Positions 163-25,547 of a stretch of DNA of 30,817 nucleotides are shown here, in pieces. Every line of letters starts with the position of its first letter. The stretch's first letter is position 1. Source of the DNA: a virus; IMG/VR virus record IMGVR_UViG_3300028025_004499, positions 1 through 30,817 of that record; one strand, 5' to 3'. Made by a program: the position numbers and the translations under genes. The notes beneath the pieces are model-generated. The model searched no databases and had not been told where the DNA came from. It saw only the letters and a list, made by a program, of their open reading frames with translations.

Positions 163-185
163 ATGGCCCTACTATACAAAAATAA
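63..185 (+). other. Possible 40-codon reading frame that starts with a tag-like peptide (relic?)
   Basis: An ATG at 63 opens a 40-codon frame whose first residues are MGGLFYKYS. This closely resembles the GG-x-LLYKY peptide carried by many proteins downstream. The remainder is low-complexity, rich in Ile and Tyr, and encoded by AT-rich DNA. It overlaps the start of the next gene in another frame. It is most likely a tag left behind when its gene body was lost, or chance. I do not claim it is expressed. Confidence 0.2.
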
Positions 186-1044
186 AAGTATTATAAAATA
201 CAAGGAAGGGGATGTTTTAGACCCCCCTAAAAAAGGTATGAGTTCTTCTAATGAGCCTACTTTACAAGATTACTTAAAAGTATATAATTCTGCTATAGAG
301 TTAGAGAATAATTTGAAAAAATATCCTAATTATAAACTTATAGATCAAAAGGAATTAGGTAACAATGATAGCTGGAAAGACCGTTTATATGAAGCTAGAT
401 TGTCGTATGATGATTGGCATAATCCTAAATCTAAACTTCTTAAACAATATTTAAGTAGTCCTGGTATGCCTAAGCATCGAAAAAACCATATACCAAAAAA
501 TATGAACGATTATAATCCTGAGTTTTATTACAAACAGGATAGTCCTAATACTTTTTATCAAAGGGAATTATCTTCAGGTTATTTGAATAAAGATTTTCCT
601 ATGGCTTATTATGATACTCGCATCAGGCCTACTTCACTGTTTAGATATCAAGGTGATTTAGGACCTAACAATATAAAGGACGGAGTAGAACTTTTTAAAT
701 ATAATCCCACAATAGTAAAAGAGCAAGCTTTAAAAATATTTCCTGGGGCTGAAAAAGAATTTGAAAAAATAGACAGTCTTTATACTACCCCAATTGCATC
801 TACAGAATCTAAACCTGTGGTTAATACTACAACTAATACTATTCCTACAGTTAAACCTAGTAGTACGCCGGTAGGGTGGCAACCTTTCTCTGTTAATGGT
901 AGAGTTTTAGATCCTGAAATCTACGGTTATGGGGAGTCTGTAAATAACAGGCCTTTAGAATTAGCACAATTTGCTAGTTCTTATTTAAAAAAAGATATAA
1001 TGGATCAGTATAAAAAATCTGGAAAATATCCTTGGCAAAAATAA
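163..1044 (+). CDS. Tagged accessory protein with C-terminal 'LDPxIYGYGES' domain
   Basis: The 293-residue product begins MALLYKNKSIIKYKEGD, a variant of the short basic tag shared across this cluster. The middle (about residues 30-200) is charged, rich in Tyr, Asn and Pro, and matches no family I recognise. A Ser/Thr/Pro linker at about 210-235 leads to a C-terminal domain (about 236-293) with PVGWxPxSxNG, LDPEIYGYGES, AQF and YPW. The same C-terminal domain ends the gene at 2851-3456, so the two share a module on different bodies. No signal peptide or membrane segment is visible. It is the first of a tight same-strand run; the next gene starts seven bases on. Function unknown; probably virion cargo, by analogy with its tagged neighbours. 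Confidence 0.8.
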   Translation: MALLYKNKSIIKYKEGDVLDPPKKGMSSSNEPTLQDYLKVYNSAIELENNLKKYPNYKLIDQKELGNNDSWKDRLYEARLSYDDWHNPKSKLLKQYLSSPGMPKHRKNHIPKNMNDYNPEFYYKQDSPNTFYQRELSSGYLNKDFPMAYYDTRIRPTSLFRYQGDLGPNNIKDGVELFKYNPTIVKEQALKIFPGAEKEFEKIDSLYTTPIASTESKPVVNTTTNTIPTVKPSSTPVGWQPFSVNGRVLDPEIYGYGESVNNRPLELAQFASSYLKKDIMDQYKKSGKYPWQK

Positions 1045-1050
1045 AATATT

Positions 1051-1947
1051 ATGAGTTTATTACGTAAATATCAAAAAGGAGATAGCAAATTAAGTTTTCC
1101 TATCGGCCCAAGAAAAAGTAAATTTATACTAAATAACAAAATTGTAGATGCTGATTTACTAGAAAAAGAAAATGTAGGAGATAAGACAGTAGAAAGCCAA
1201 TTAAAGACTTTTGATGCTTATAAAAAATCTCTTGATTATATGAGAGATTGGCAAAATTCTCCTAAATATAAAGAAATGTTGATGAATTCTTCAATAAATA
1301 AAGATATGTATAATTATACATCTAAAATGAGAAATGAGAATTTAAAAACCGTACCAATGTTAAGAATTGCCACTAGCCAAGAAGATGAAGATTCACGCAC
1401 AGGTGGTTCTTTAATGCCATACACTGGTCAAATAACAATTTTTCCTTATGGTTTAGGTAAAGAATCTGCAGTAGGACATGAAATGTCACATGCTACTGAT
1501 AGACCAGTCCCTGGAAAAATTTATAATGGAAACTGGGTAATCCCAAAAAAAGACGTAAAATATATTAATGAGCACAAAGGAAAAAATAATACAGACAATC
1601 AAAATTATAAAGACAATCCTGACGCTTTTTTAGACCCTGAGCATTATAAAGAACATTATATAGATTATGTAGGAGAACCTACAGAAACTAGAGCTAGGCT
1701 TAATGAAATTAGAAAATTTTCTAAAAATAATAATTTATATGATCCTTTTAAAGAGGGTGTTTCACCAGAATTATATCATGAAAAATTAAAAAACGCAGAA
1801 TTTCCTGATAATCCTATGGAAGATTTAAAAAGCTTATATACAGACGAAGAAATTATATATATGCTTAACCACATTTCAAAAAATGATAAAAAAATTAATA
1901 GCAATGTGCAGGCCTCAAAAAAAGGAGGTTTATTATATAAACCTTAA
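1051..1947 (+). CDS. Tagged HExxH zinc metallopeptidase
   Basis: The 298-residue protein has a shared tag at each end: N-terminal MSLLRKYQKGD and C-terminal KKGGLLYKP. The zinc-peptidase motif HEMSH lies at residues 143-147 (His143, Glu144, His147). The likely third ligand is Glu212, in GEPTETRARL, about 65 residues downstream. This spacing and the 'PxExxAR' context recur in the gene at 5423, so the two appear to be related peptidases. There is no secretion signal. Expected chemistry is peptide-bond hydrolysis with one zinc ion; the substrate is unknown. It could act on host proteins, peptidoglycan cross-bridges or phage precursors. Start and stop abut the neighbouring genes closely, which supports co-transcription. 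Confidence 0.85.
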   Translation: MSLLRKYQKGDSKLSFPIGPRKSKFILNNKIVDADLLEKENVGDKTVESQLKTFDAYKKSLDYMRDWQNSPKYKEMLMNSSINKDMYNYTSKMRNENLKTVPMLRIATSQEDEDSRTGGSLMPYTGQITIFPYGLGKESAVGHEMSHATDRPVPGKIYNGNWVIPKKDVKYINEHKGKNNTDNQNYKDNPDAFLDPEHYKEHYIDYVGEPTETRARLNEIRKFSKNNNLYDPFKEGVSPELYHEKLKNAEFPDNPMEDLKSLYTDEEIIYMLNHISKNDKKINSNVQASKKGGLLYKP

Positions 1948-1958
1948 AATTAAATAAT

Positions 1959-2849
1959 ATGGCATTATTGTATAAATATCAAAAAGGGGATAAATTAACT
2001 GTTAATGAAAAGAGATATAATGAGTTATACAAACCTTTAATTAGCCATATTGAAGAAAGTTTAACTGAGAATATGCCTCTTAGCACCTTGAGTGTTTTAG
2101 AAAGTGTTTTTAACGGCGGAGAAGATAATGAAAAAGGAACAAGAAATATACCGCCTGTAACTCCTACCTTGAAGGAAATGCAAAAAAAATTTCTGGGTTT
2201 ACGTCCTACAGAAATTAAAAAGCTTTTAGAAACTGACTGGAGAAATTTAACTTTACCTGAAGTTCTGGCAAAAACACCAAAAAATATTTCTTATAGAGAA
2301 ATGTTTAAGTATAGTAATCATATAAAAGATCTTAGAGATAAAGGTTATACTTTTGAAAAGGGTGGAAGTTTGTTACATAAATATCAAAAAGGAGAAACTT
2401 TTAAACAGCCAACTGTGTACGTATCTGATAAAGTAGAGCGTAGCTATTACCATCCTGTAGAAAAGACTATGCACCTTTCTCCTAAAGACGCTAAAGATAA
2501 AGAAATTTTAGCTCATGAATATATACATTATTTACAAAATATAAGTGGAGATATGCACGCGCCTGTAAATGGACCTGTAAAAGTTCCTACTATACCTATG
2601 ACTGATGAAGCTAGTGCTTACTATTATAATCGTAAAAATTTAGAGGCTCAAGATCGTATAGATTATATTAAAGGTATAAAGGAATTTAGATTTGTGCCTG
2701 ATGATGTTATTTATGATAAAGAAGTAGATAATATGATGTATTATGAGCCTAGTACGATTGAAGGGAGTGCTTATAAGTGGCAAAAAAATGTAGCTGATAA
2801 ACATCCAGGCTTTCAAGACTTTTATAATAATTTTATAAAACGTAAATAG
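1959..2849 (+). CDS. Two-module tagged protein with HExxH peptidase domain
   Basis: This 296-residue product looks like two tagged proteins joined end to end. It starts MALLYKYQKGD, followed by an unrecognised charged segment (about 12-130). A second complete tag, KGGSLLHKYQKGE, sits at residues 134-146. Behind it is a zinc-peptidase domain with HEYIH at 186-190 and a candidate third ligand Glu in STIEGSAYKW near the C-terminus. The internal tag sits exactly at the module boundary, which suggests either gene fusion or a linker that is cut. No signal peptide is present. The next gene begins one base after the stop codon. Peptidase assignment is from motif only; the substrate is unknown. Confidence 0.85.
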   Translation: MALLYKYQKGDKLTVNEKRYNELYKPLISHIEESLTENMPLSTLSVLESVFNGGEDNEKGTRNIPPVTPTLKEMQKKFLGLRPTEIKKLLETDWRNLTLPEVLAKTPKNISYREMFKYSNHIKDLRDKGYTFEKGGSLLHKYQKGETFKQPTVYVSDKVERSYYHPVEKTMHLSPKDAKDKEILAHEYIHYLQNISGDMHAPVNGPVKVPTIPMTDEASAYYYNRKNLEAQDRIDYIKGIKEFRFVPDDVIYDKEVDNMMYYEPSTIEGSAYKWQKNVADKHPGFQDFYNNFIKRK

Positions 2850-2850
2850 T

Positions 2851-3456
2851 ATGTTGCTATATAAATATCAAAAAGGAAATACATTAAAAATTTCTGATCC
2901 AAAGGAATTTGCTTATAGAAATAAAATGTATAACGACAGTTTAAACTTATACAAAGAAAGTGAAAAAGCAAGAGATGAACAATTTGAAAAATATAACGTG
3001 CAGTTTACAGATTTTAATAAAAAAGATGCAGCTCAAGCATTAAATGTACTTATTAAAAATAAAAAAGCTACTAAGTTAGAAAAAAATTCAAATATTAAAC
3101 CTATTGGAACAAGCAAAGATTTTAAAAATACTTTACTTATCTATAAAAAACCCACTCAACCGGTAGCTTTAAAAAAAGCAAAACCTAAAAAAGAAGAAAT
3201 TGTAGAAACAGAAACTATAATAGAAACTCCTACAGTAGAAGTTGCAAAAGTAAAAAGTAAACCTATTACTTCTTACCCAGTAGGTTACGCTCCTTACTCC
3301 CACAATGGAAACATTTTAGACCCTAAAATTTATGGTTATGGAGAAAGCACTAGCGGAAATCCTATACAAATTGCGCAATTCATAGACTCTTATGGGTTAA
3401 AGCAAAAAATGAGAGAATATTCTAAAGATAATTCTTATCCTTGGCTAACTAAATAA
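2851..3456 (+). CDS. Tagged accessory protein sharing the C-terminal domain of the first gene
   Basis: The 201-residue product begins MLLYKYQKGNTL. A charged helical segment (about 15-95) and a Lys/Pro/Thr/Val linker (about 100-140) follow. The C-terminal domain (about 143-201) contains PVGYAPYSHNG, LDPKIYGYGES, AQF and YPWL, closely matching residues 236-293 of the gene at 163-1044. The two bodies differ, so this C-terminal domain is mobile in its own right. No catalytic motif is seen. The ATG of the next gene shares the final A of this gene's stop codon. Function unknown. Confidence 0.8.
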   Translation: MLLYKYQKGNTLKISDPKEFAYRNKMYNDSLNLYKESEKARDEQFEKYNVQFTDFNKKDAAQALNVLIKNKKATKLEKNSNIKPIGTSKDFKNTLLIYKKPTQPVALKKAKPKKEEIVETETIIETPTVEVAKVKSKPITSYPVGYAPYSHNGNILDPKIYGYGESTSGNPIQIAQFIDSYGLKQKMREYSKDNSYPWLTK

Positions 3457-3710
3457 TGTGTACTATATATTGCATATCTTCAGTAACTACTGGATTTTTC
3501 TACCTTAATGTAGCAGAAAATTATGAAGCTTGTGTAAGTATGCACAATAAAATGCTTATTATGCAAAAACACCCCATAAAAAATTTACAAAAAATTTATA
3601 ACACACATGGGCCCGATGATATATATTATACCCCTATGGAAGATATAAATTGTAAAAATAAAGATCAAATAGTATTAGCTTACAGGGCTGCTATGACCGC
3701 TAGAAATTAA
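3456..3710 (+). CDS. Small protein resembling a degenerate GIY-YIG fold
   Basis: The 84-residue product has no tag. Its layout follows the start of GIY-YIG nuclease domains: TIY at residues 3-5 where GIY is expected, then YLN at 16-18 where YIG is expected. The stretch HPIKNLQKIYNTHGPDD (about residues 39-55) resembles the 'HPNxKLQxAxNKYGxDxF' segment of that family. The catalytic Arg after YIG and the terminal Glu are not where they should be. If the relationship is real, this is a non-cleaving, possibly DNA-binding descendant. The start overlaps the preceding stop by one base. The match is a visual one and needs a profile search. Confidence 0.65.
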   Translation: MCTIYCISSVTTGFFYLNVAENYEACVSMHNKMLIMQKHPIKNLQKIYNTHGPDDIYYTPMEDINCKNKDQIVLAYRAAMTARN

Positions 3711-3761
3711 CATTTACTTTTAAAAATTTATTATTAATTTTATACAATAAATATACAAAAT

Positions 3762-4169
3762 ATGGAAATGGAAACTTATTACGGGGTTGACTTGGTGTCT
3801 GCTGTACCTATGACAAAAAAAGAATACATTCTTAGTAAAGACTTAAAATTTAATGATAACGAAGACCAAGAAGGAATGGCAATTTCTACTGATCAAACTG
3901 GCCAAACAAAAATTTTTTGGACTCCCCTTACACAATTTAATAAAAATTGCGTAAAAGAAATTATTCCTAAATTACCAAAAAGTAAATTAATTGATTATCA
4001 GCAAAGAGTAGTAGATGAGTACTCTGAATTAATGGTAAAGATTGATAAGCTTAAAACTTTTTTAGATTCTAAACCAGAAAATGTTGAAGATCTAGAGCTT
4101 TTAAATTTGCAACTTACAGCTATGAAAACCTATGCTAGTATTTTAGCACATAGAATAAATAAATTTTAA
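3762..4169 (+). CDS. Small conserved phage protein (helical C-terminus)
   Basis: The 135-residue product has an N-terminal part with a 'FWTPLTQFNKN' strand/helix, similar to the 'SWSPKEVF' region often found in small phage proteins. Its C-terminal half, about residues 83-135, is amphipathic helical: 'ELMVKIDKLKTFLDS' then 'LLNLQLTAMKTYASILAHRI'. Helices of this type recur in small phage proteins of unknown role. It carries no tag and no catalytic motif. It follows a 51-base AT-rich gap and is the last gene before the terminator at 4191-4215. Family resemblance is from memory and the function is unknown. Confidence 0.75.
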   Translation: MEMETYYGVDLVSAVPMTKKEYILSKDLKFNDNEDQEGMAISTDQTGQTKIFWTPLTQFNKNCVKEIIPKLPKSKLIDYQQRVVDEYSELMVKIDKLKTFLDSKPENVEDLELLNLQLTAMKTYASILAHRINKF

Positions 4170-4190
4170 GATATATACCCGACAAGGTAG

Positions 4191-4215
4191 GCCCGCAGAG
4201 ATGTGGGCTTTTTTA
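4191..4215 (+). terminator. Rho-independent terminator
   Basis: Stem GCCCGCA (4191-4197) pairs with TGTGGGC (4202-4208), with one wobble pair and loop GAGA, and is followed by a T run. It ends the first tagged-gene unit, after the stop at 4169. The genes from 4279 on therefore probably have their own promoter in the AT-rich stretch 4216-4278. Confidence 0.85.
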
Positions 4216-4278
4216 TTTTTACTTTTTTCTTACAATATATATTGGTATATTATTTTATAAAATATAAAATCTATTGGT

Positions 4279-4437
4279 ATGTTACTATATGATAAAAAAT
4301 CATTAAAAAATAAATCTGTTAAAAAAGCAGCAGATATAAAAGAGCCTGTTTATACAGACACTTATTCTGATCGTTTGGCAAAATTAGCAGCTCACAAACC
4401 TGGACGTAAAGGTTTAGAAGATTACTTAAAAAAATAA
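4279..4437 (+). CDS. Short tagged protein, 52 residues
   Basis: A short gene that starts MLLYDKKSLKNK, a tag variant, and continues as a basic, Lys/Ala-rich peptide ending GRKGLEDYLKK. It is the first gene after the terminator and ends three bases before the next start codon. The tag, the tight spacing and the lack of any other frame in this interval support it as real. No domain is recognised. The C-terminal 'YSDRLAKLAAHKPGRKGLEDYL' region is probably helical. Confidence 0.6.
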   Translation: MLLYDKKSLKNKSVKKAADIKEPVYTDTYSDRLAKLAAHKPGRKGLEDYLKK

Positions 4438-4440
4438 ATT

Positions 4441-4959
4441 ATGCAAGTAAGTAGTAGAAGCTTTGAAAATTACAAAAAAGGCGGTGTTATAGAAGGTAGT
4501 ATAGTAGGAAAACCTGAGCTTACAGGAAACGCTGGTTTAAGATTAACATTTAAAACTGGTGGAATTTTATTGTATAAAAAATCTCCTGTAAATTATTTTG
4601 ACGATGGGGGAATGATGGATGGAAATCCACCAAAGAAAAAATATCCATCTAGAACACAAGTAGCCGCGGTTAATAATCTTAAAATTTCTAATAAACAGTT
4701 GAATTCAAATGATGCAAAATCAAATACAGATTTTAACTCTTATGCAAGATTTATTGATGAGTATGATGATGGCACGCCAAATGATACTTCATATACATAT
4801 ATTACACCAACAGAGAATGTATTTTTTTCTACCGCAATTAACCCTGAAACAAATCAAAAATTTGGGCAAATTCAATCAAATAATAAATTTTCAAGTTTGA
4901 GCCCAGAACAACGTAAGCATTATCAAGCTAAAATTATGCAACAATTAGGAAATAAATGA
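4441..4959 (+). CDS. Tagged protein of unknown function
   Basis: The 172-residue product has the tag inside rather than at the start: KTGGILLYKKSP at residues 38-49. A weaker KKGGVIEG lies near residue 12. The N-terminal 37 residues could be a small module placed before the tag. The rest is polar and low in hydrophobics, including a DDGGMMDG stretch and a region rich in Asn, Asp and Thr, so it may be partly disordered. No enzyme motif is visible. The stop overlaps the next start as ATGA (4956-4959), a typical translational coupling. Function unknown. Confidence 0.7.
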   Translation: MQVSSRSFENYKKGGVIEGSIVGKPELTGNAGLRLTFKTGGILLYKKSPVNYFDDGGMMDGNPPKKKYPSRTQVAAVNNLKISNKQLNSNDAKSNTDFNSYARFIDEYDDGTPNDTSYTYITPTENVFFSTAINPETNQKFGQIQSNNKFSSLSPEQRKHYQAKIMQQLGNK

Positions 4960-5408
4960 ATTCAAGAGTAGCTTTAAATAAATTACGTAAAGACTTAGGA
5001 GATTATTCCTATACTACTTATAATGTAGATCGTTCTCGTAAAGCTAAAAAAGGCGGAGTTTTATTATACAAAAAAGGCAGTGCACTTAAATCTAGAATAA
5101 AATGCCACAATCCTAAATGTAATCATAGTTGGGGTAGAGAAGAAGGCGGAGATGATATGTATATTTGTCATGAATGTGGTACTGATAATGCAGAATTTTA
5201 TAAAAAAGGAGGTATGTTATTATATAAAAAAGGTGGATCTATTCACATAGCTGAAAATAAAAAAGGGACTTTTACTGCGGCAGCAACTAAGCATGGTAAA
5301 AGTGTTCAAGCTTTTGCAAAACAAGTTTTAGCTAATAAAGAAAATTATAGTCCAGCTATGGTTAAAAAGGCTAATTTTGCCCGCAATGCTAGTAAGTGGA
5401 AACATTAA
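4956..5408 (+). CDS. Modular tagged protein: zinc ribbon plus 'FARNAxKW' module
   Basis: The 150-residue product is a string of small modules separated by tags. Residues 1-30 are basic. The first tag, KKGGVLLYKKGS, is at 31-42. A zinc ribbon follows with Cys50, Cys55, Cys71 and Cys74 (CxxxxC and CxxCG) and an internal HSW. The second tag, KKGGMLLYKKGGS, is at 83-95. The last module (about 96-150) has KGTFTAAA, SVQAFA, VLANKENYSP and ANFARNASKW, a motif I recall as a stand-alone small phage protein. The second tag contains an internal Met (residue 87), as if a gene start had been fused in frame. This is the clearest case of the tag marking domain borders. Confidence 0.85.
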   Translation: MNSRVALNKLRKDLGDYSYTTYNVDRSRKAKKGGVLLYKKGSALKSRIKCHNPKCNHSWGREEGGDDMYICHECGTDNAEFYKKGGMLLYKKGGSIHIAENKKGTFTAAATKHGKSVQAFAKQVLANKENYSPAMVKKANFARNASKWKH

Positions 5409-5422
5409 AAAATTAAAAAAAG

Positions 5423-6631
5423 ATGATACTATATAAAGATGGAGAAGTTCTTTCTACAACAAAATCTGAAAATGGTACAATTACCAATTTAGTAAAAACT
5501 AAAAGCGGCGAGCATAAACTACAGGTTAAAACTAAAGATGGTAAATATTACGAAAAAGATTTAGCTGACTGGGAAGCAGATAAATATAAATTAGGTAAGC
5601 AAAAAGATATTTCTTTAAACCCAAAAAAATGGGGCTTAAATGATTATTCAGATTATTCTTCCTATAATTCAGCTTTTAGAAACGCTAGGGAAAGTAAAGA
5701 AAAAGAATTTACTTATAAAGACGAGAGATATAATACAAACCTTATACCTAAAAAAGATTCTGATTTATATTGGGAAAGTAAAAAGTTTTTAAAAAATTAT
5801 TATGAAACTCAGCCGTACGCAGTTTCTTCGGCTATTAACGGCACAAGCCCATTTACAGCTAGAGAAGAATTTTTAAAGAAAAAATATGGTTATTCATTTT
5901 TAGCTGCTTATGACAAAAGAAGTAAGTTTAAAATTGATTCACCTGAGTGGAATAAATTATCTAAAGTTTTAAGCGCTATAGGAGAAGAAGAAGATTTAAT
6001 TTTAAAAGGAAATCACAAAGAATATAATGATTTTTATGATGGTTTAAAAAAGCAAGATAAACAAAAACAAGTAAAAGAAAGATTAAAATCACTTGACAAA
6101 CCTTCATACTTTTCTGTAACAAGCGCAAAACCATTAGACATGTTAGAAGAAGGTTACTGGGATGGTGGAAAAAATAAAACTTTTATGTACACTAAAGGAG
6201 AACCTTCTAAATTAAATACTACTTTTGTCCATGAACTGTCTCATAAAGGCGACGATATAATAGATGTAGTTTTGTCTACTCCTGATATAAATGTAAAAGC
6301 TTTAAATGAATCTCCCTTTGGTGATAATATAAGCCAAAGTGGTTTCAATTATCTTTCAGACCCTTCTGAAATAGAAGCTAGAAAATTATCTACTTTATTT
6401 TTCCTGAAAAAACATAAACTTCCTTGGGAAGCCGGCAAAATATCACCTCAAGTTTTAGACAAACTTTACGATTATCATTTTGATGATAAATTACCGTCTG
6501 ATATTGATCAACTTTTAGAATTATATGGAGCACAGCCAGAAGATTTATTAAATTATTTAAACGGTAATTACGATAAATATAAATATAAGCATAAATATAA
6601 AAAAGGCGGATTGCTATTAAAATACAGATAA
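5423..6631 (+). CDS. Tagged HExxH zinc metallopeptidase (C-terminal tag)
   Basis: The 402-residue product begins MILYKDGEVL and ends KKGGLLLKYR, so tag-like sequences bracket the protein. HELSH is at residues 270-274. A likely third zinc ligand, Glu316, lies in YLSDPSEIEAR, about 45 residues downstream; this context closely parallels the peptidase at 1051. The N-terminal 60 residues contain beta-rich repeats around VKTKSGEHK and VKTKDGKYY, and the middle is charged and helical. A C-terminal helical region precedes the tag. No signal peptide or membrane span is seen. Expected to be a zinc-dependent peptidase with unknown substrate. The next gene starts two bases after its stop codon. Confidence 0.85.
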   Translation: MILYKDGEVLSTTKSENGTITNLVKTKSGEHKLQVKTKDGKYYEKDLADWEADKYKLGKQKDISLNPKKWGLNDYSDYSSYNSAFRNARESKEKEFTYKDERYNTNLIPKKDSDLYWESKKFLKNYYETQPYAVSSAINGTSPFTAREEFLKKKYGYSFLAAYDKRSKFKIDSPEWNKLSKVLSAIGEEEDLILKGNHKEYNDFYDGLKKQDKQKQVKERLKSLDKPSYFSVTSAKPLDMLEEGYWDGGKNKTFMYTKGEPSKLNTTFVHELSHKGDDIIDVVLSTPDINVKALNESPFGDNISQSGFNYLSDPSEIEARKLSTLFFLKKHKLPWEAGKISPQVLDKLYDYHFDDKLPSDIDQLLELYGAQPEDLLNYLNGNYDKYKYKHKYKKGGLLLKYR

Positions 6632-6632
6632 T

Positions 6633-6827
6633 ATGAATATAGAGGATTTACATGAGATGGAAGATTCTTTTGAATCTTACGATGATAATAAACAAATACA
6701 GATTAAAAAATCTGTTGAAAGTGTAGAAGAAGAAGAAAAAATTTTTACTGGTACAACTCCTGCTAGACGTAGAATAGTAGAATCAGATAACAGTGTAGAT
6801 AATCGTTGGAATAAATTTAAATTTTAA
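6633..6827 (+). CDS. Small acidic protein
   Basis: The 64-residue product is highly acidic in its first two thirds (runs of Glu and Asp, including VEEEEK). It then has a short basic stretch, TPARRR, and ends NRWNKFKF. It has no tag and no recognised domain. It sits two bases after the peptidase gene and five before the transglycosylase gene, so it is probably co-translated with them. An adaptor or inhibitor role for a neighbouring enzyme is possible, but nothing in the sequence proves it. Confidence 0.6.
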   Translation: MNIEDLHEMEDSFESYDDNKQIQIKKSVESVEEEEKIFTGTTPARRRIVESDNSVDNRWNKFKF

Positions 6828-6831
6828 AAAT

Positions 6832-7452
6832 ATGATTTTACTTAAATATCAACCGCAACCATTATTTGATTTTGAATCAGACCCAGAACCAGTGCCAAAA
6901 AAACCAGCTGCAACAAAAGAAGTAAAAACTTCAAAAATTCCAACAGATATATTTTTAAGACAATTATATTCTGAATCAGGTTTAGGTGAAGGTGCTTTAT
7001 ATAAACAACAATTATTAAGTAGGTCAGCAAATTCTCCTTTAGCAGTAGGCCCAGCCCAAATACAAAAAGTAGCTTTAGACGAATATAATAAAAAATACAA
7101 TAAAAAATATAATTTAGAAGACAGATTAAAACCAGAAGTTGCCGCAGAAATTCAGTCAGGTTATATGAAAGATTTATATAATAAAGATTTTATAAATAAA
7201 CCTAATCAGCTAGAAAAAGTAAGAATTGCAAAAACATTATTAGCTTATAATAGAGGGCCAGGTGCAGCAAAAACTATTTTAACTGATTTAAAAAATAAAG
7301 GTTACGATATTTACAATTCACTGGATTGGGTTGATAAAATACCAAATGCTGAGGGTAAAAAATATGTTACTAATATAATTAAGGGTTTTAGCCCAGAAGA
7401 TGAAACAAAATATCAAAAATTAATAAAAAATACTACTTTTAAATACGATTAG
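6832..7452 (+). CDS. Tagged lytic transglycosylase / lysozyme-like protein
   Basis: The 206-residue product begins MILLKYQPQP, a tag variant, then a Pro/Glu/Lys linker up to about residue 38. The body has the goose-lysozyme/SLT layout. Catalytic Glu48 lies in LYSESGLGEG, followed by AVGPAQIQK (the 'GxxQ' segment), then LLAYNRGPGA and a C-terminal YVTNIIKGF. This predicts cleavage of the glycan backbone of peptidoglycan. No holin or signal peptide accompanies it, which argues for a virion-borne wall-opening enzyme rather than a secreted endolysin. That location is inferred; the fold assignment is strong. It is followed after one base by the next gene. Confidence 0.88.
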   Translation: MILLKYQPQPLFDFESDPEPVPKKPAATKEVKTSKIPTDIFLRQLYSESGLGEGALYKQQLLSRSANSPLAVGPAQIQKVALDEYNKKYNKKYNLEDRLKPEVAAEIQSGYMKDLYNKDFINKPNQLEKVRIAKTLLAYNRGPGAAKTILTDLKNKGYDIYNSLDWVDKIPNAEGKKYVTNIIKGFSPEDETKYQKLIKNTTFKYD

Positions 7453-7453
7453 T

Positions 7454-9304
7454 ATGATTTTACGTAAGTACCAAAAAGGAGAAAATAAATTTGAATTACC
7501 TGTAGATCGCACTAAAAGCGAAACTACAAAAGTAATGACTGGTCCTGCCCAAAATTTAAAAAATAAAGAACAATTATTTAAATCTTTAAAAGATCAAGCA
7601 TTATTGCAAGCAGACAAACAACTTAAAAAAGGCGCCATAAATATTAAAGAGCATAAGCAAATAAAAGAAGAAATAAAAAATTCAACTAATTCTCTAGACT
7701 TAGAAAAGAAATTTGAAAAGGTTCAAGAAAAATTGTTACGTGCTACAAAAACACCAGTATTAAAAAATGCTCCTTTAACTCAAAATAAAGAATTTAATAA
7801 AGAGTTTTTTGAAAAAGCTGAAGATAAAGACAGAAATTATATAAGCCAAGATTTATTACCAAATTTAGGCAGAGTTATTACATCTCTAGCAACTAAAGGT
7901 AATCTTAGTAATGTACCTAAAAATTATGAACTGTATAAAAGATATGGAATAAATATGCCTGCTTCAGGAGGTTATGGTGATTTAGTTATGACTGAAAATG
8001 GAGGAGATCAAGTAATAGAATCTTTTAACCCTTTTAGATCTGCTCAGGATTTAGAATATAATATACAAGATAAAGATTACGGCAAAGCTATTGTAAATGC
8101 TGTAGGTACTTTACCTCTATTTAAATTAACTAAACCTGCCGCTAAATTATTACTTAAAGCAGGAGAAACATTAAGAACCGCTCAACCTATATCAACATTA
8201 GGCTTAACTACAAGACTTGCAACAAATGCCAACGCTGTAAATCGCTTTGTAAACTTAACTGGTGCTGGTATTAAAGGCGCAGGTTACGGTATAAAATATG
8301 GCGCAGATAATGTTTTAGATTTAGGTGGTTTTGGAGGTAGTAATAAATTAATACCTTTAAAATTAAAAGTAAATAAAGGCAAAAAAGAAATTACAAATAT
8401 TAATGCTAGTCAATCTATTATAAAAGATTTAAAAGAATTAGAAAATTTACCAGAAGATCATCCTATATTTAACAGCTGGACTGGCACTAAAAAAGATTTT
8501 ATTGAGCACCAAAATAAAATTGTTGATATAAAAAGTAAAGATTATGTATTAGATAAATTAAACAACAAATTAAGAGAATATTCGCAAGATTTAGGCAATT
8601 ATCCTGCTTTAGAAAAAGATATAACCCAAGAAAAATTTGTTATTGAAGGCAGAAAAAACGCAGTTGATTTTATTGAAAGTGAGCATTTTTTAAAGAATAT
8701 AAAGGCTGCACATCCAGAATTAACTGATAAAGATATAATTGCAATACAAAAAAACACTAAAAGAAGAATGTTAAGCTCTCCATTAGATATAAAAATGAGA
8801 GACAAAAGTTCTCTTGCAAGCTGGAATAGTGGTCAATATAATTATGATAAAAACACATTAGATTTTAGATACGTAGACCCATATATGAATCAAGATCCTA
8901 GATTTTTAGAAGATATAGCAACTCACGAGTTTGGACATAATCAAACCAGCAACCAAAATGTTTATGGTGTAAATATAAAACCTCAAGGCTGGCATAATGC
9001 TTTGTCAAAAGATAAAATGGAACTAATTAAACCTGAAGCAGAATTATATTTAGGTAAATTAGAAGAGCAACGGCAACGAGCTTTAGGAGCTTATACTATT
9101 GCTAAAAAACATAATTTATTAGAAAATGGCGTATTTACAGAAAATACATTAAATAAATTAAATGAACATAAATATGCTCCAGATGTGTCGTCTATTCTTG
9201 ATGATTACACAAGGCCTTCTGCTTTAAATTATTTAAATAAATTTTATAATATAGCTATTCCAATTACCGCAACATCGTCATTATTATATAATAACAAAAA
9301 ATAA
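7454..9304 (+). CDS. Large tagged HExxH metallopeptidase
   Basis: The 616-residue product begins MILRKYQKGEN and ends SLLYNNKK, a tag-like tail. Residues 15-120 are Lys/Glu-rich and helical. About 130-300 is rich in Ala, Gly and Leu, with weakly hydrophobic stretches (around 'AIVNAVGTLPLFKL' and 'NLTGAGIKGAGYGI') that could touch membranes. The zinc site HEFGH is at 491-495. Downstream, PEAELYLGKLEEQ and a 'KKHNLLENGVFTENTLNKL' segment align in pattern with the same regions of the peptidases at 5423 and 1051, suggesting one family. No cleavable signal is present. It is the longest member of the tagged set and probably combines delivery, membrane contact and peptidase functions; the middle part is speculative. 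Confidence 0.82.
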   Translation: MILRKYQKGENKFELPVDRTKSETTKVMTGPAQNLKNKEQLFKSLKDQALLQADKQLKKGAINIKEHKQIKEEIKNSTNSLDLEKKFEKVQEKLLRATKTPVLKNAPLTQNKEFNKEFFEKAEDKDRNYISQDLLPNLGRVITSLATKGNLSNVPKNYELYKRYGINMPASGGYGDLVMTENGGDQVIESFNPFRSAQDLEYNIQDKDYGKAIVNAVGTLPLFKLTKPAAKLLLKAGETLRTAQPISTLGLTTRLATNANAVNRFVNLTGAGIKGAGYGIKYGADNVLDLGGFGGSNKLIPLKLKVNKGKKEITNINASQSIIKDLKELENLPEDHPIFNSWTGTKKDFIEHQNKIVDIKSKDYVLDKLNNKLREYSQDLGNYPALEKDITQEKFVIEGRKNAVDFIESEHFLKNIKAAHPELTDKDIIAIQKNTKRRMLSSPLDIKMRDKSSLASWNSGQYNYDKNTLDFRYVDPYMNQDPRFLEDIATHEFGHNQTSNQNVYGVNIKPQGWHNALSKDKMELIKPEAELYLGKLEEQRQRALGAYTIAKKHNLLENGVFTENTLNKLNEHKYAPDVSSILDDYTRPSALNYLNKFYNIAIPITATSSLLYNNKK

Positions 9305-9309
9305 TATTT

Positions 9310-9948
9310 ATGCTGCTTAAAAAATACCCTAATAAAGTTATTAAAACATTAGTAAAAGTTATTGACTTAAATTTTGAAATAGATCTTAAGGTAGGTAACA
9401 GCAAAATCACTAAAATAAAAGATAAAGCTACTATAGCTATGTCTACTAATAGTGCAGGAGTATATACTATAGGTAAAGATATAGAAAAATATTGTGGTAT
9501 ACCTGAAGAGGAAGTAAAAAGAGATGTTGCTGCTGGTAAAGATAGGCCTGAAGATGCTATTATATACGGCTTAACTAACATTATGAATGGAGGTAAAGAT
9601 ATTTACTTATGGGTCAATGGTACACGTTTACAAGGTATGAGTAAAAAAGTAGGTACTTGGCCAGCAATTATAGAAATATTATCACACGAAAGTACGCATT
9701 TAGCAAAATTAATTTTAACTAGAGCTATTGCAAAACAAAAAGGAATAGATGTTGATGGGCCTAAATGGATCACTTATGATTACGGAGCTGGAGAATATAA
9801 TTGGCCTACTAATGGAGATATAAATGACGGCAATCCACTTATACAAATTGATGATGAAACATTTGCTACTGTAGTAGGATACATCAATCAACAGATTATT
9901 ACACAATTTTTAGATATGGCTAAAGAGTTTTTGCCTGAGCTACAGTAG
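9310..9948 (+). CDS. Tagged small HExxH zinc peptidase
   Basis: The 212-residue product begins MLLKKYPNK, a diverged tag. The zinc motif HESTH lies at residues 126-130, and Glu183 in DDETFATVVGYI is the likely third ligand. The pattern 'HExxH ... DxExxAxxxGY' fits a family of small phage-encoded zinc peptidases; it differs from the 'PxExxAR' type at 1051 and 5423. The N-terminal 100 residues are beta-rich with no signal peptide. It is the last gene of the tagged cluster, followed by a gap with a candidate promoter. Substrate unknown. Confidence 0.82.
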   Translation: MLLKKYPNKVIKTLVKVIDLNFEIDLKVGNSKITKIKDKATIAMSTNSAGVYTIGKDIEKYCGIPEEEVKRDVAAGKDRPEDAIIYGLTNIMNGGKDIYLWVNGTRLQGMSKKVGTWPAIIEILSHESTHLAKLILTRAIAKQKGIDVDGPKWITYDYGAGEYNWPTNGDINDGNPLIQIDDETFATVVGYINQQIITQFLDMAKEFLPELQ

Positions 9949-10257: not shown

Positions 10258-10860
10258 ATGCTAAAATTTCAAGTATACAATAATAAAGTATGCATTGATC
10301 CTAGCATAATTCTACTAGAAGAATTTTCTAATATCCTTGCATATGCAAAAAAGAAAAAAGACGAAGACCTCGGAAATCGCATGCTATTATATGTTTTCTT
10401 TTGTTGTGACCTTACAGAAGATAATTTCATGCGAGATATTGACTACAGGCTTAAACCTGAGCAGGCTATGTCTAGAGCTTTTCTTAATAAGATAACAAAG
10501 TTTGACAAAGAACAATCTGAGCTTATAGATGCTGCAATTGATGCTTATAATTTTTTTAATGAAACCTCTGCTGAAAGAGCTGTTTTAGCTATAGATAAAA
10601 AAATTGATGAAGCTAGGACAGTATTAGAAAGCACAGAAATTGAAATTGTAAGAAATCAAAAAGATAACGGCGAAGTATCTTTTGCATCTAATGAAACTAT
10701 ACTTTCTAAATTAGCAACTAATATAGGTGCGTTAATGACGTTAAAATTAAACGTTATGAATGCTGCTAAAAAAATGGAAAATACTGGTCGTGTACGTGGT
10801 GGTAAAGGATCTTCATTATTAGAACGTGGCGGATTAATACAAAAAATAGACGATGAGTAG
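10258..10860 (+). CDS. Helical protein upstream of TerL; candidate small terminase
   Basis: The 200-residue product is almost entirely alpha-helical by composition, with a basic patch KKKKDEDLGNR near residue 32 and heptad-like segments at about 75-125 and 145-175. The C-terminus is RVRGGKGSSLLERGGLIQKIDDE-like, glycine- and charge-rich. Its stop overlaps the TerL start by eight bases, the usual place for a small terminase subunit. TerS proteins are poorly conserved, and no helix-turn-helix is obvious, so this is inferred from position and helicity only. It could instead be another head or packaging accessory. Confidence 0.55.
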   Translation: MLKFQVYNNKVCIDPSIILLEEFSNILAYAKKKKDEDLGNRMLLYVFFCCDLTEDNFMRDIDYRLKPEQAMSRAFLNKITKFDKEQSELIDAAIDAYNFFNETSAERAVLAIDKKIDEARTVLESTEIEIVRNQKDNGEVSFASNETILSKLATNIGALMTLKLNVMNAAKKMENTGRVRGGKGSSLLERGGLIQKIDDE

Positions 10861-13147
10861 TATTTCAAGTAAGCCAAAAAATAAAATGAAAAAAGTTAAC
10901 ACTGCTAAAATACCAACTTTAGCAAGTGCTAAAAATGAATATAATCCTTTTTCATTAAACTTTTTAAAAACTGACGAACAAAACAGAATATGGAATGGTG
11001 AATTTGAAGTTACAGATGCGCCTAAAAAATTGCATGGAGTTGTTACGGGTGAAGAAGAAATTAAACTTACAGATTATCTTGTATATAGGCCTTTACCAAA
11101 AGAACTTATAGCTTGGCGAGAAATACCAAATTATCATCCTGATAGTTTAGACATGGAAGAATGGTATAATCCTCTTATTAATTTTTGCTATAAAGGAGTT
11201 TGGGTAGATGGTGAATATTATAATCCTTTCTTTGTTTATTGGCTAAATATATTTGTATTTCCAGTACCTATATATGACGATGAAGGTAAACCTACAGAAG
11301 ATTTTACTACTTCACACCCTCAATATTGTAATATAGATAGATATTTTTTTGATTATTCTTGGAAAGCTTACTTAAATAATAAGGATGTTTCTATAATGGG
11401 TGGTCGTGGTGTAGGTAAATCTTATATGATTAATAATGTAATGGATAGAGAATTCAGGTTATTTCCTGGTAGCCATACATTAATTTCATCTACAAATGAA
11501 GTAACTACTGATGAGGCTTGGCGTAAAATAGAAGAAGGTTTAGGCGCTATTGAAAGATTACATAGAGCTTTAAAATTAAAACTTATTGATGATTCTGCTG
11601 AAGTAAAATATTCAGGAGAAACAGTAGATTTACCAGATGGAACTAAAGAAGAGCGTGGACATTTATCTAAATTTGAAAAAATTGTATATGGTAAAAATGC
11701 AGGTAAAACAAGGGGTAAACGTCCTAGTAAACAATTAGTAGAAGAGTTTGCAGCATTTCCTCCTTCACACCAAAAAGGTTCACTAGGCGCTTGTAAAAGA
11801 GAAAGTCGTGGTTCTTGGTATGTAATGGGTAGTATTAAAAAATGTCAAGTGTACTATTCAGGTACAGGTGGTACTGTAGAAAATGACGAAGCAGAAGGTA
11901 TATTTTGTAACCCAGATGCTCACGAAATTTTACCTACTTACGATTTTGGTATAGCTTCAGGTTTCTTTTGCCCTACACATATTAAACGTGCAGGTACTTG
12001 GGAAGTAACAGGCTGCCCAGACGTATCTTTAGCTACAGGCGAAGTAATGCAAGAGCGTGAAGCTGCTAAAGCTGATCCTACTGTTTACTTAGGTTTATTG
12101 CAAGAATACCCTATGACTATAAAAGAAGTATTTATACGTAAAGGTAGTAATATATTTGATCAAGATAAAATAGCTACACAACGTATAAACCTTCAAATGA
12201 ATCCTAATATACCTAAACCAGAAAAAGGTTTTTTAAAGTGGGCACGAGCTGAAAACGGTAAAATTATAGGTGTAGAATGGGACCCTAGTCCTTTAGGAGA
12301 TATAGAAATATTAGAGCATCCTCATTGGCTAACAGAACATGCTTTGGAAAATGAAAGACAACCGTTACCTAATTTATACGTAGGCGGAGCCGATAGTATT
12401 GACCAAGGTACAGGAGATTCTTCACACGCAGTAAATAACAAAAAAGGTTCTGAGTTAGCAATACTTATAAAGAAACGTATATTAGAAAAAGGATATTTTA
12501 GAACTACTTCTAATTTATACGTAGCTAAATACAAGAAAAGATCTGTAGATGTTAGAACAGACTGGGATAACGCTTTAAAATTAGCTTATTATTATAATGC
12601 TGAAGTAAATATAGAATACACTAAAATTGGTATAGTTGGTCATTTCCGTGACAACGGCTTTTATCATTTACTTAAAAAAAGACCTACTATAAATTTACAA
12701 AATGCAGACCCTAATAAACAAACACAATTAATAGGTACAACTGCAGCTGGTCCTATAATAGATCATCAAGATCAACGTATAAAGTCTTACATAGATGATT
12801 TTTATGATACTATATATTTTGCAGATTTATTAGAGCATTTACAGGATTATAACAGAGAAGACAGAACTAAATTCGACTTAGTTATTGCTATGGGTTTATG
12901 TGAATTATCTGATGAAGATCTCATGGGTAAAAGTGCAAAACCTAAAGAAGCAGCAACAGAACAATTTCAATTATTTGGTTACTATACTGATCCTGCAACT
13001 GGACATAAAAAATATGGTGTTATTCCGTCAAAATCATCTGCTCAACAAGAATTAGACAAATCTATAGCTAAATCATTTTTAGAACATGGAGGAGTACGTT
13101 GGATAGATATGAGTGATCCAAAAAATCCTCAATATATATATGATTAA
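10853..13147 (+). CDS. terL: Terminase large subunit (packaging ATPase and nuclease)
   Basis: The 764-residue protein carries the two TerL domains. Walker A is GGRGVGKS at residues 183-190. The Walker B-like strand ends LVEEF, with Glu297 and Glu298. The C-terminal RNase H-fold nuclease begins with Asp514 in GGADSIDQG, with Asp517 close by. Late acidic residues, in 'YIDDFYDT' and 'RTKFDLVIAM', complete the pattern. It powers genome translocation through the portal and cuts the concatemer. The N-terminal 130 residues are an extension, with aromatic segments typical of TerL proteins from crAss-like phages. It overlaps the upstream helical gene, and the portal follows after one gene. Confidence 0.95.
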   Translation: MSSISSKPKNKMKKVNTAKIPTLASAKNEYNPFSLNFLKTDEQNRIWNGEFEVTDAPKKLHGVVTGEEEIKLTDYLVYRPLPKELIAWREIPNYHPDSLDMEEWYNPLINFCYKGVWVDGEYYNPFFVYWLNIFVFPVPIYDDEGKPTEDFTTSHPQYCNIDRYFFDYSWKAYLNNKDVSIMGGRGVGKSYMINNVMDREFRLFPGSHTLISSTNEVTTDEAWRKIEEGLGAIERLHRALKLKLIDDSAEVKYSGETVDLPDGTKEERGHLSKFEKIVYGKNAGKTRGKRPSKQLVEEFAAFPPSHQKGSLGACKRESRGSWYVMGSIKKCQVYYSGTGGTVENDEAEGIFCNPDAHEILPTYDFGIASGFFCPTHIKRAGTWEVTGCPDVSLATGEVMQEREAAKADPTVYLGLLQEYPMTIKEVFIRKGSNIFDQDKIATQRINLQMNPNIPKPEKGFLKWARAENGKIIGVEWDPSPLGDIEILEHPHWLTEHALENERQPLPNLYVGGADSIDQGTGDSSHAVNNKKGSELAILIKKRILEKGYFRTTSNLYVAKYKKRSVDVRTDWDNALKLAYYYNAEVNIEYTKIGIVGHFRDNGFYHLLKKRPTINLQNADPNKQTQLIGTTAAGPIIDHQDQRIKSYIDDFYDTIYFADLLEHLQDYNREDRTKFDLVIAMGLCELSDEDLMGKSAKPKEAATEQFQLFGYYTDPATGHKKYGVIPSKSSAQQELDKSIAKSFLEHGGVRWIDMSDPKNPQYIYD

Positions 13148-18404: not shown

Positions 18405-19520
18405 ATGTCAGAAGAAGTAAGAAGTCTAGACGATCTACATGAAGATTTAGACCCAACACCAGTGGATCCAATTCCATCCGATCCTAACGATCCTAACCCA
18501 CCAGCTGATCCTGCTCCCGCAGACCCAGCACCAATTGACCCACCTGCAGATGGTGATCCAGCGCCTAGACCTAATTTAAATGATTACGTACCTACAGAAG
18601 ATGCTCCAGCAATAGAGCAATTTTTATCTCAATACGGAGTATTAGGAGGTATGATTCAATTTGAAGATGGAGAAGCTAAACATTTTGATGAATTATCTGA
18701 AGTAGAAAAATTTAATGTCCTTAGAGACTTATCTGTTACTACTGCTCCAGATATTGCAGAACAATATGGCTTAGATGATGCTGAAATTGATTTAATAAAC
18801 TGGGTTAGAGAGCAAAACAAACCTATTCAAGAATCTATTGAAGAATTAGCGCAAGCAAGAGCTGCTCAATTGTTAGCTTTAAATAACGCAAATTCTACAG
18901 ATTTTACTTCTATGGATGATGATGCTATTACTATGCGTTGGTTGAAAGGAAATGATCCTGAAGCAACTGAAGAGCAATTAGCAGAAGAATTATCTAAACA
19001 AAAAGAAAGTAAATTATATTCTAAAAATGCTGCAAGCCTTAGACAACAATTTGTTAATGAGCAACAAACATTAGCAAGTCAACAACAAGCTCGTGAGCAA
19101 GAAGCATACTTTGCAGAATTAGAACAAGAACGTTCTGAAATTGCTACAGCAATTAGCGGTATTAAAGATATTGCAGGTTTTGAAATTTCTGATGAAGATA
19201 AAAATGTTATTTTACATGACTTGTTAGAAGTTAATGAGCATGGAGATTCTTTATTTATGGAAGAAGTTTTTTCAGATCCAAATCGTTTATTTAAAGCTGC
19301 TTGGTTGTATAAAAATTCTGAAAATATTTTTAATCAGTTAGAAAAGTATTATAAAAATGAAATTGCAAAAGCTTATCAATCTGGTAAGACTAGCACTTTA
19401 AATGGATTCTCTTCCAACCCAGTAGGAGGAGTAAGATCTTCACAAGATGCTAAAGGCAATGATGATTCTTCTTTGAGAAAATCAAAGATTATAGACGTTG
19501 ATGATTTACACAACGACTAA
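18405..19520 (+). CDS. Scaffold-like protein (acidic, coiled coil)
   Basis: The 371-residue product sits directly upstream of the capsid gene. Residues 1-60 are acidic and proline/aspartate-rich with short repeats of the type DPxPxDP, likely disordered. The middle and C-terminus are Glu/Gln/Ala-rich helices (for example ATEEQLAEELSKQKES, and ARAAQLLALNNA), and a basic tail, SSLRKSKIIDVDDLHND, ends the protein. Acidic disordered head, long helices, and position before the major capsid protein fit an internal scaffolding protein that is removed after shell assembly. Scaffolds do not conserve sequence, so this is a context call. Confidence 0.7.
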   Translation: MSEEVRSLDDLHEDLDPTPVDPIPSDPNDPNPPADPAPADPAPIDPPADGDPAPRPNLNDYVPTEDAPAIEQFLSQYGVLGGMIQFEDGEAKHFDELSEVEKFNVLRDLSVTTAPDIAEQYGLDDAEIDLINWVREQNKPIQESIEELAQARAAQLLALNNANSTDFTSMDDDAITMRWLKGNDPEATEEQLAEELSKQKESKLYSKNAASLRQQFVNEQQTLASQQQAREQEAYFAELEQERSEIATAISGIKDIAGFEISDEDKNVILHDLLEVNEHGDSLFMEEVFSDPNRLFKAAWLYKNSENIFNQLEKYYKNEIAKAYQSGKTSTLNGFSSNPVGGVRSSQDAKGNDDSSLRKSKIIDVDDLHND

Positions 19521-24750: not shown

Positions 24751-25296
24751 ATGGCTTTAGAAAAAATAGTAAATAACAGTGAAAATAATGCTATAAAAAA
24801 TAAATTAATACATGAAGAGTGTATTGAGTTATTAAACTTTCGTATAACAGAAGAAGATAAATCTGCTAGATTATATCACAACATGTATATGTTTTTAGAA
24901 AATAAAGGCTATACAGGTGCTGGAGCATTATGGCATAAATACGGACACGAAGAAGAAGTACACTCTGATTGGGCTAGAAATTATTTATTAGATCTTGGTA
25001 TACAGCCTGAGTTAAGAACATTACCAGCTATTATGCCAAAAGAATACGCAAGTTTTCCAGAAGTAATACGCTTATCTTATGACCATGAAGTAGAAATTAC
25101 TAATCAATGTAAAGAGCTTGCTAGTGGTGCAATGAAACATGGAGACCATATGTTGTATCAATTAGCTTTAAAATTTTTAGCTGAACAAATAGAAGAAGTT
25201 GGTAAAATGCAAACTTGGTTAGATAAATTACAAGCTTTTGGCGAGGGCCCAGAAGCATTGAGATTTTTAGATAATGAAATGGGTAGCTTAGCATGA
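24751..25296 (+). CDS. Ferritin (iron-storage type, complete di-iron site)
   Basis: The 181-residue product aligns by eye along its length with bacterial ferritin such as E. coli FtnA. Ligands are all present: Glu35 and Tyr42 on helix A, Glu68 and His71 in HEEEVHSDW, Glu113 in YDHEVEITN, and Gln146, Glu148 and Glu149 in AEQIEEVGK. The C-terminus FLDNEMGSLA matches the closing 'FIDKELS' of ferritins. It is expected to oxidise Fe(II) and store iron inside a protein cage. Its place inside the structural operon, between two neck-type genes, is unusual. It overlaps the next gene as ATGA. There is no signal peptide or virion tag. Confidence 0.92.
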   Translation: MALEKIVNNSENNAIKNKLIHEECIELLNFRITEEDKSARLYHNMYMFLENKGYTGAGALWHKYGHEEEVHSDWARNYLLDLGIQPELRTLPAIMPKEYASFPEVIRLSYDHEVEITNQCKELASGAMKHGDHMLYQLALKFLAEQIEEVGKMQTWLDKLQAFGEGPEALRFLDNEMGSLA

Positions 25297-25547
25297 TTTT
25301 AATATACAAAAAAGGAGGGTCTTTAAAATCTAATATGTCTTGCGGTGAGGTAAAATCTTCCCCTAACAAGCATAAAAAGATTATGAAGCTATACTGTATA
25401 GGAGGCAAGAAAAAGCTAGTGCACGCAGGTGATGATCGTTATGTAAATAATGTAGATTCTAAACGTAAGGCTTTTAAAGCTAGACATAAATGCAGCACAG
25501 CAAAACCAGGCACAGCTAGGCATTTAGCTTGTACAGAATTATGGTAA
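25293..25547 (+). CDS. Tagged small basic protein
   Basis: The 84-residue product starts MILIYKKGGSLKSN, the same peptide as the tags of the left cluster. It is followed by MSCGEVK, where Met15 looks like the original family start. The body has a basic 'RKAFKARHKCSTAKPG' segment and Trp at the very end; small basic proteins with 'MSCG ... KRKSFKARH ... W' are known from other phages, in my recollection without the tag. It has four Cys that might bind metal. It is coupled to the ferritin gene (ATGA overlap). Because the tag is simply added in front, this gene is good evidence for a portable peptide. Confidence 0.8.
   Translation: MILIYKKGGSLKSNMSCGEVKSSPNKHKKIMKLYCIGGKKKLVHAGDDRYVNNVDSKRKAFKARHKCSTAKPGTARHLACTELW

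Follow-up and report, generated by a model that had tools for sequence, protein, structure and literature searches.

In the human gut, crassviruses are the most abundant viruses. The window analysed here (the whole stretch of 30,817 nucleotides, a 30.8 kb record that is a fragment of a virus) begins with genes whose products open with variants of one short basic peptide, and the question it raises is what such a common peptide, hereafter the tag, does on enzymes of different kinds. The original prediction regarded it as an address or a processing signal and knew of no description of it; none was found in open-access papers.

The window and its tagged genes

The window carries a crassvirus-type late block, including the major capsid protein, portal and TerL by which a crassvirus-type phage is recognised, and by homology it is a crassvirus-type late operon:

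10853-13147, TerL (phrog_6681 match, 4e-45)
13207, GroES-like protein
13806, portal (phrog_6547 match, 1e-51)
19627, crassvirus major capsid protein (PF23898, E 2.8e-18)
24751, ferritin-like protein
from 27043, muzzle-like protein, assigned from its place and similarity (the window ends inside the gene)

Named Crassvirales are distant, with 21-27% identity overall and 22-27% for TerL. Related contigs (G001-G010) were collected through TerL, MT835470 is a deep relative of the window, and genes were called as the longest ORF. A further crassvirus link is found at 3762-4169, where the C-terminal half of the product matches the crAss001_48 family (PF21825, 1.4e-17).

The tagged genes and associated features are as follows, with a slash after the GG of internal tags:

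163..1044, + strand, tagged protein MALLYKNKS... with a weak tag and a C-terminal domain common to 2851-3456
1051..1947, + strand, HExxH (zincin-like) protein with N-tag MSLLRKYQKG and C-tag KKGGLLYKP
1959..2849, + strand, two fused tagged units, with N-tag MALLYKYQKG and internal EKGG/SLLHKYQKG followed by a HExxH unit
2851..3456, + strand, tagged protein MLLYKYQKG, with a C-terminal domain paralogous to 163-1044
4279..4437, + strand, 52-aa protein with the weak variant MLLYDKKS (the G002 homologue begins MLLYSKKP)
4441..4959, + strand, protein with internal KTGG/ILLYKK
4956..5408, + strand, zinc-ribbon-like unit (assigned by reading cysteines) between two tags (KKGGVLLYKKG and KKGGMLLYKKGG), then a C1-type 58-aa module
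5235..5408, + strand, this 58-aa module, GGSIHIAENKKGTFTAAATKHGKSV...NFARNASKWKH, a predicted three-helix unit
5423..6631, + strand, HExxH protein with weak N-tag MILYKDG and clear C-tag KKGGLLLKYR
6633..6827, + strand, small, mostly acidic protein near the tagged genes, conserved in relatives, whose start, MNIEDLH, is the peptide at the termini of the scaffold-position protein
6832..7452, + strand, SLT transglycosylase (PF01464) with N-tag MILLKYQ
7454..9304, + strand, 616-aa HExxH protein with N-tag MILRKYQKG
9310..9948, + strand, HExxH protein with N-tag MLLKKYPNK
25293..25547, + strand, 84-aa Cys-rich protein in the structural block with the tag variant MILIYKKGGS

Each of the window's five HExxH proteins bears a tag, and the five lack detectable overall similarity to one another. 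None has a Pfam metallopeptidase match, so the description "zincin-like" rests on the HExxH motif and on a match of 1051-1947 to phi14:2 g070, which is weak (27% over 157 aa, E 8e-9) and starts away from the tag; g070 is listed in its record as a virion protein detected by MS/MS. The claim that the tagged bodies are unrelated was slightly overstated, since the products of 163-1044 and 2851-3456 share the C-terminal domain VGxxPxSxNGxxLDPxIYGYGES (53% over 59 aa); their middle parts are unrelated. The relatives add a tagged M23 peptidase (PF01551) and two glucosaminidases (PF01832), one of them weak. The 9310-9948 protein has a 61% identical homologue in G001, whose internal Met starts MILRKK, while no relatives of 5423 were found among viral contigs, and tblastn of 163, 1051, 7454 and two tagged proteins of other contigs against phage records returned no match. 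The Cys-rich protein at 25293-25547 shares 62% identity with a tag-less protein of Flavobacterium Elemovirus phages, encoded beside GroEL/GroES, and has matches in Roseobacter phages as well.

A second terminal peptide, LDDLHxD, occurs at both ends of the scaffold-position protein (18405-19520), upstream of the capsid gene, and is conserved in five of the related contigs (G002, G003, G004, G009 and G010). Through this peptide, the small 6633-6827 protein could be tied to the capsid in the manner of the scaffold.

Position of the tag and gene splits

The tag was searched with a PSSM trained on contigs G002 and G003 only, using the 99.5% shuffle threshold as the cut-off. In the window, 7 of 33 N-termini exceeded this threshold against ~0.2 expected. 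These seven (163, weak at 8.3; 1051, 1959, 2851, 6832, 7454 and 9310) all lie between 163 and 9948, upstream of the terminase gene. The nine starts originally listed and 25293 are all present as ORFs, and seven of these ten bear the tag by this independent PSSM; however, 4279 (MLLYDKKS), 5423 (MILYKDGE) and 25293 (MILIYKKGG) are looser variants that fall below the threshold. The internal copies originally listed were recovered by the same PSSM in 1959 (residue 138), 4441 (residue 43) and 4956 (residues 36 and 88), whereas of the listed C-terminal copies those of 1051 and 5423 are clear and that of 7454 (SSLLYNNKK) is doubtful. The full form of the tag can be written as [K/R]-x-G-G / x-L-L-Y-K-Y-Q-K-G.

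At the DNA level, five copies of the core YTNNNNAARTAYCARAARGG are present, and 100 shuffles produced none. Leu is nevertheless encoded among the copies by TTA, CTA, TTG, CTT and CTG, and Gly by GGA, GGG, GGC and GGT; that codons differ between copies while the residues are kept points to selection on the peptide rather than on the DNA. GG pairs alone are not enriched over the glycine content, so the signal lies in the full peptide and its position.

The relatives point to a preference for late genes, for which the early/late division was set by us from gene content and strand. In G002, which belonged to the PSSM training set, the strong tags all lie at 49.7-60.8 kb, just before TerL, and the ~49 kb of other genes are without a clear tag, apart from one borderline PSSM match. 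With [KR]x(0-2)QxG, a looser form chosen after some of the proteins had been seen, N-terminal matches were found in 5/21 late vs 0/87 other genes of G002, and in 13/98 late vs 2/105 other genes (p=0.0018) of G009 and MT835470, both outside the PSSM training. Variants in relatives include MGVLKKYQKGGE, MLDYLKKYQTGGS and MSQAIRKYQTGGK. In the relatives, the tag is all but restricted to late genes.

The tag, for which the original prediction had proposed a profile search of crAss-like genomes, marks N-termini, C-termini and domain borders. Whole Crassvirales genomes show no N-terminal enrichment. An exact ATG-anchored scan of viral contigs gave in-frame matches only in the window's lineage and in L025, a scan for KKGGxLLYK gave matches mostly in other frames, and per-genome counts of the C-tag regular expression were barely above shuffled expectation. 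Among the matches listed for KKYQxGG in other viral contigs, 21 are N-terminal against 6.9 expected (p=1.2e-5).

Three pairs of fused and split genes locate the tag at borders between units. The 1959 product from residue 137 (EKGG/SLLHKYQKG) corresponds to a whole G002 gene at 49669; the 4441 product from residue 42 (KTGG/ILLYKK) corresponds to a whole G003 gene at 15409, starting MIIYKK; and the product of G009 50626 from residue 538 (RNGG/VLLKYQQGG) matches that of a G002 gene at 50834 from its start. The homology begins at the tag in all three, and the separate units each keep the peptide. Because the fused partners are separate in another genome and the split falls on the tag, the tag is read as a unit-border peptide. 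Across these predicted late proteins, the comparison shows the tag at N-termini, C-termini and domain junctions, with genes split or fused exactly there.

Relationship to C1 and other known systems

C1 (gp45 of crAss001; PDB 7qog and others) is the nearest known protein. It is located inside crAss001 virions, as established by cryo-EM and mass spectrometry, with ordered segments in the tail barrel (residues 214-245) and on the portal (residues 425-552) (PMC10172136). The comparison with C1 comprises one module and short degenerate peptides partly chosen by eye. The module, which among the window's tagged proteins occurs in 4956-5408 only, is 84% identical there to one inside the C1-position protein of cr128_1; it is also present in the C1-position proteins of Rudgehvirus and cr85, and it was recognised by eye in crAss001 gp45. 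AlphaFold models the module as three helices and the tag as disordered (pLDDT ~41), and a PDB fold search of the module gave no significant match. A scan found 221 viral loci with the module, and in most of those read a GG precedes it. It also occurs on three contigs of ~410 kb (L128, L131 and L133), probably from very large phages.

The peptides of the C1 proteins are of a similar kind. In cr128, the N-terminus reads MNKRYQTG and the C-terminus SKGGYLTIKKKK; Rudgehvirus has an internal KKYQDGG; in crAss001 the C-terminal peptide is AKGGKVRTKKKKGLTYG, with gp45 ending in KGGKVRTKKKKGLTYG. At C1 C-termini the peptide takes the form KGGYLTIKKK. GG pairs of gp45 at 209 and 427 are near the starts of the ordered segments 214-245 and 425-552, and further GG pairs lie at 263, 332 and 373. 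Similar C-termini were seen in L082, L087, L099, L101, L109 and L140. By homology, one tagged protein and the C1-position proteins have a near-identical module in common, and peptides of this kind are found on C1 proteins.

C1 and the window proteins are alike in the type of the 58-aa module, in basic/GG border peptides, both terminal and internal, and in being products of late genes; C1 is a proven virion component. The two differ in that C1 is one large protein in crAss001, whereas the window has many separate small genes with the specific LLYKYQKGG form. In cr128_1 and Rudgehvirus, the module protein is encoded directly behind the stabilization (muzzle) protein, like crAss001 gp45; in contrast, the window's tagged genes precede TerL rather than following the muzzle gene.

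Short cargo peptides are also known from other systems. The T4 capsid-targeting sequence is a short N-terminal peptide on unrelated internal proteins and is cleaved by the prohead protease at an [LI]xE-type motif. The likeness of the tag to this sequence, put forward in the original prediction, is one of analogy: the motif is different, there is no sequence similarity, T4 is not known to have C-terminal or internal copies, and no [LI]xE-type motif was seen on reading the shared tag residues. Encapsulin cargo-loading peptides are short terminal peptides that bring unrelated enzymes into an HK97-fold shell; they are usually C-terminal, differ in sequence and are not known to serve phage ejection cargo. 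Polyvalent proteins of phages and conjugative elements also resemble the tagged set, in that their enzyme units, with zincin-type domains to which the HExxH proteins may correspond, are proposed to be packaged and injected, and the available portion of their description does not mention a common short peptide (PMC5512222). There, many domains share one polypeptide, whereas the window units are mostly encoded one per gene and have a short peptide in common.

Competing readings of the tag

We place a probability of roughly 55% on the tagged proteins being a virion cargo set of the crassvirus, with the tag as its unit-border peptide. From the module and peptides of C1 we infer that virions package the tagged proteins and eject them as cargo; the HExxH enzymes, the cell-wall hydrolases and the helical module would travel in the capsid or tail barrel and leave together with C1. 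More weakly, the tag may be a loading or tethering element: as a flexible basic peptide, it would dock or load each unit onto the portal, the tail lumen, C1 or the packaged DNA, and the units would be kept extended for ejection while tethered by it. The address idea of the original prediction thereby gains indirect support from the module in C1-position proteins, the C1 peptides and the confinement to late genes. The portal, major capsid and muzzle-like proteins, which are the virion proteins recognised in the window, carry no tag.

Several other explanations have to be weighed against virion cargo. A passive linker, in which Gly/Lys spacers let the units unfold and thread the tail without specific recognition, agrees with the predicted disorder and with tags at unit borders, yet nothing requires a hinge to be placed at the extreme N- or C-terminus, and composition falls far short of explaining the specific order LLYKYQKG; we consider it unlikely. 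Somewhat less likely still is a processing site, the alternative already raised in the original prediction, at which a phage protease would cut after GG, remove the C-terminal GGxLLYK tails and free the enzymes, as happens to polyproteins that are cut at GG. The fused forms fit this, as a cut after GG in ...xGG/xLLYK would leave nearly the N-terminus of the stand-alone genes, and the five HExxH proteins in the tagged set could be the proteases; zincin processing of polyvalent proteins is proposed by Iyer et al. (PMC5512222). However, units encoded on their own still begin with the peptide, although nothing has to be cut there, no candidate protease besides the HExxH units was found, and the modelled gp45 segment 425-552 spans the GG pairs at 427, 434 and 447 (PMC10172136). 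Nor were ThiF and JAB found in G002, G009 (these two may be fragments) or MT835470. Three Steigviridae (crAss001, cr85 and cr128; the L060, L064 and L068 genomes) carry ThiF (E1-like) and JAB-like genes together, and these were not found in phi14:2 either; considered as GG-cutting machinery, the pair was set aside, being not found in the window's lineage.

A set of lysis or host-directed enzymes that stays in the cell, with the tag directing it to the membrane or a host partner, would suit the SLT, M23 and glucosaminidase domains, which endolysins often have as well. That C1-position proteins bear the module and peptides of this kind speaks against it, as does the lack of any signal-peptide-like hydrophobic stretch by eye in the tagged proteins, and we rate it as improbable as processing. 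Most improbable is a repeat kept as a recombination seed that promotes the shuffling of units rather than protein function: unit borders do coincide with tags, but the copies use different codons for conserved residues, and the DNA identity is short.

Among these, virion cargo remains our preferred reading, and the tag is probably a sign, perhaps an address label, of such cargo. We propose more tentatively, and with some doubt, that a portable [K/R]xGG-xLLYKYQKGG on either end serves as a sequence-specific virion-loading code across crAss-like and related phages. If that were true, cargo genes could be split, fused and exchanged freely, and any taggable unit would be packed and ejected with C1. 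With a tag that marks crassvirus cargo, sequence alone would suffice to recognise such cargo, and the tag would single out a group of probably injected enzymes of unassigned function.
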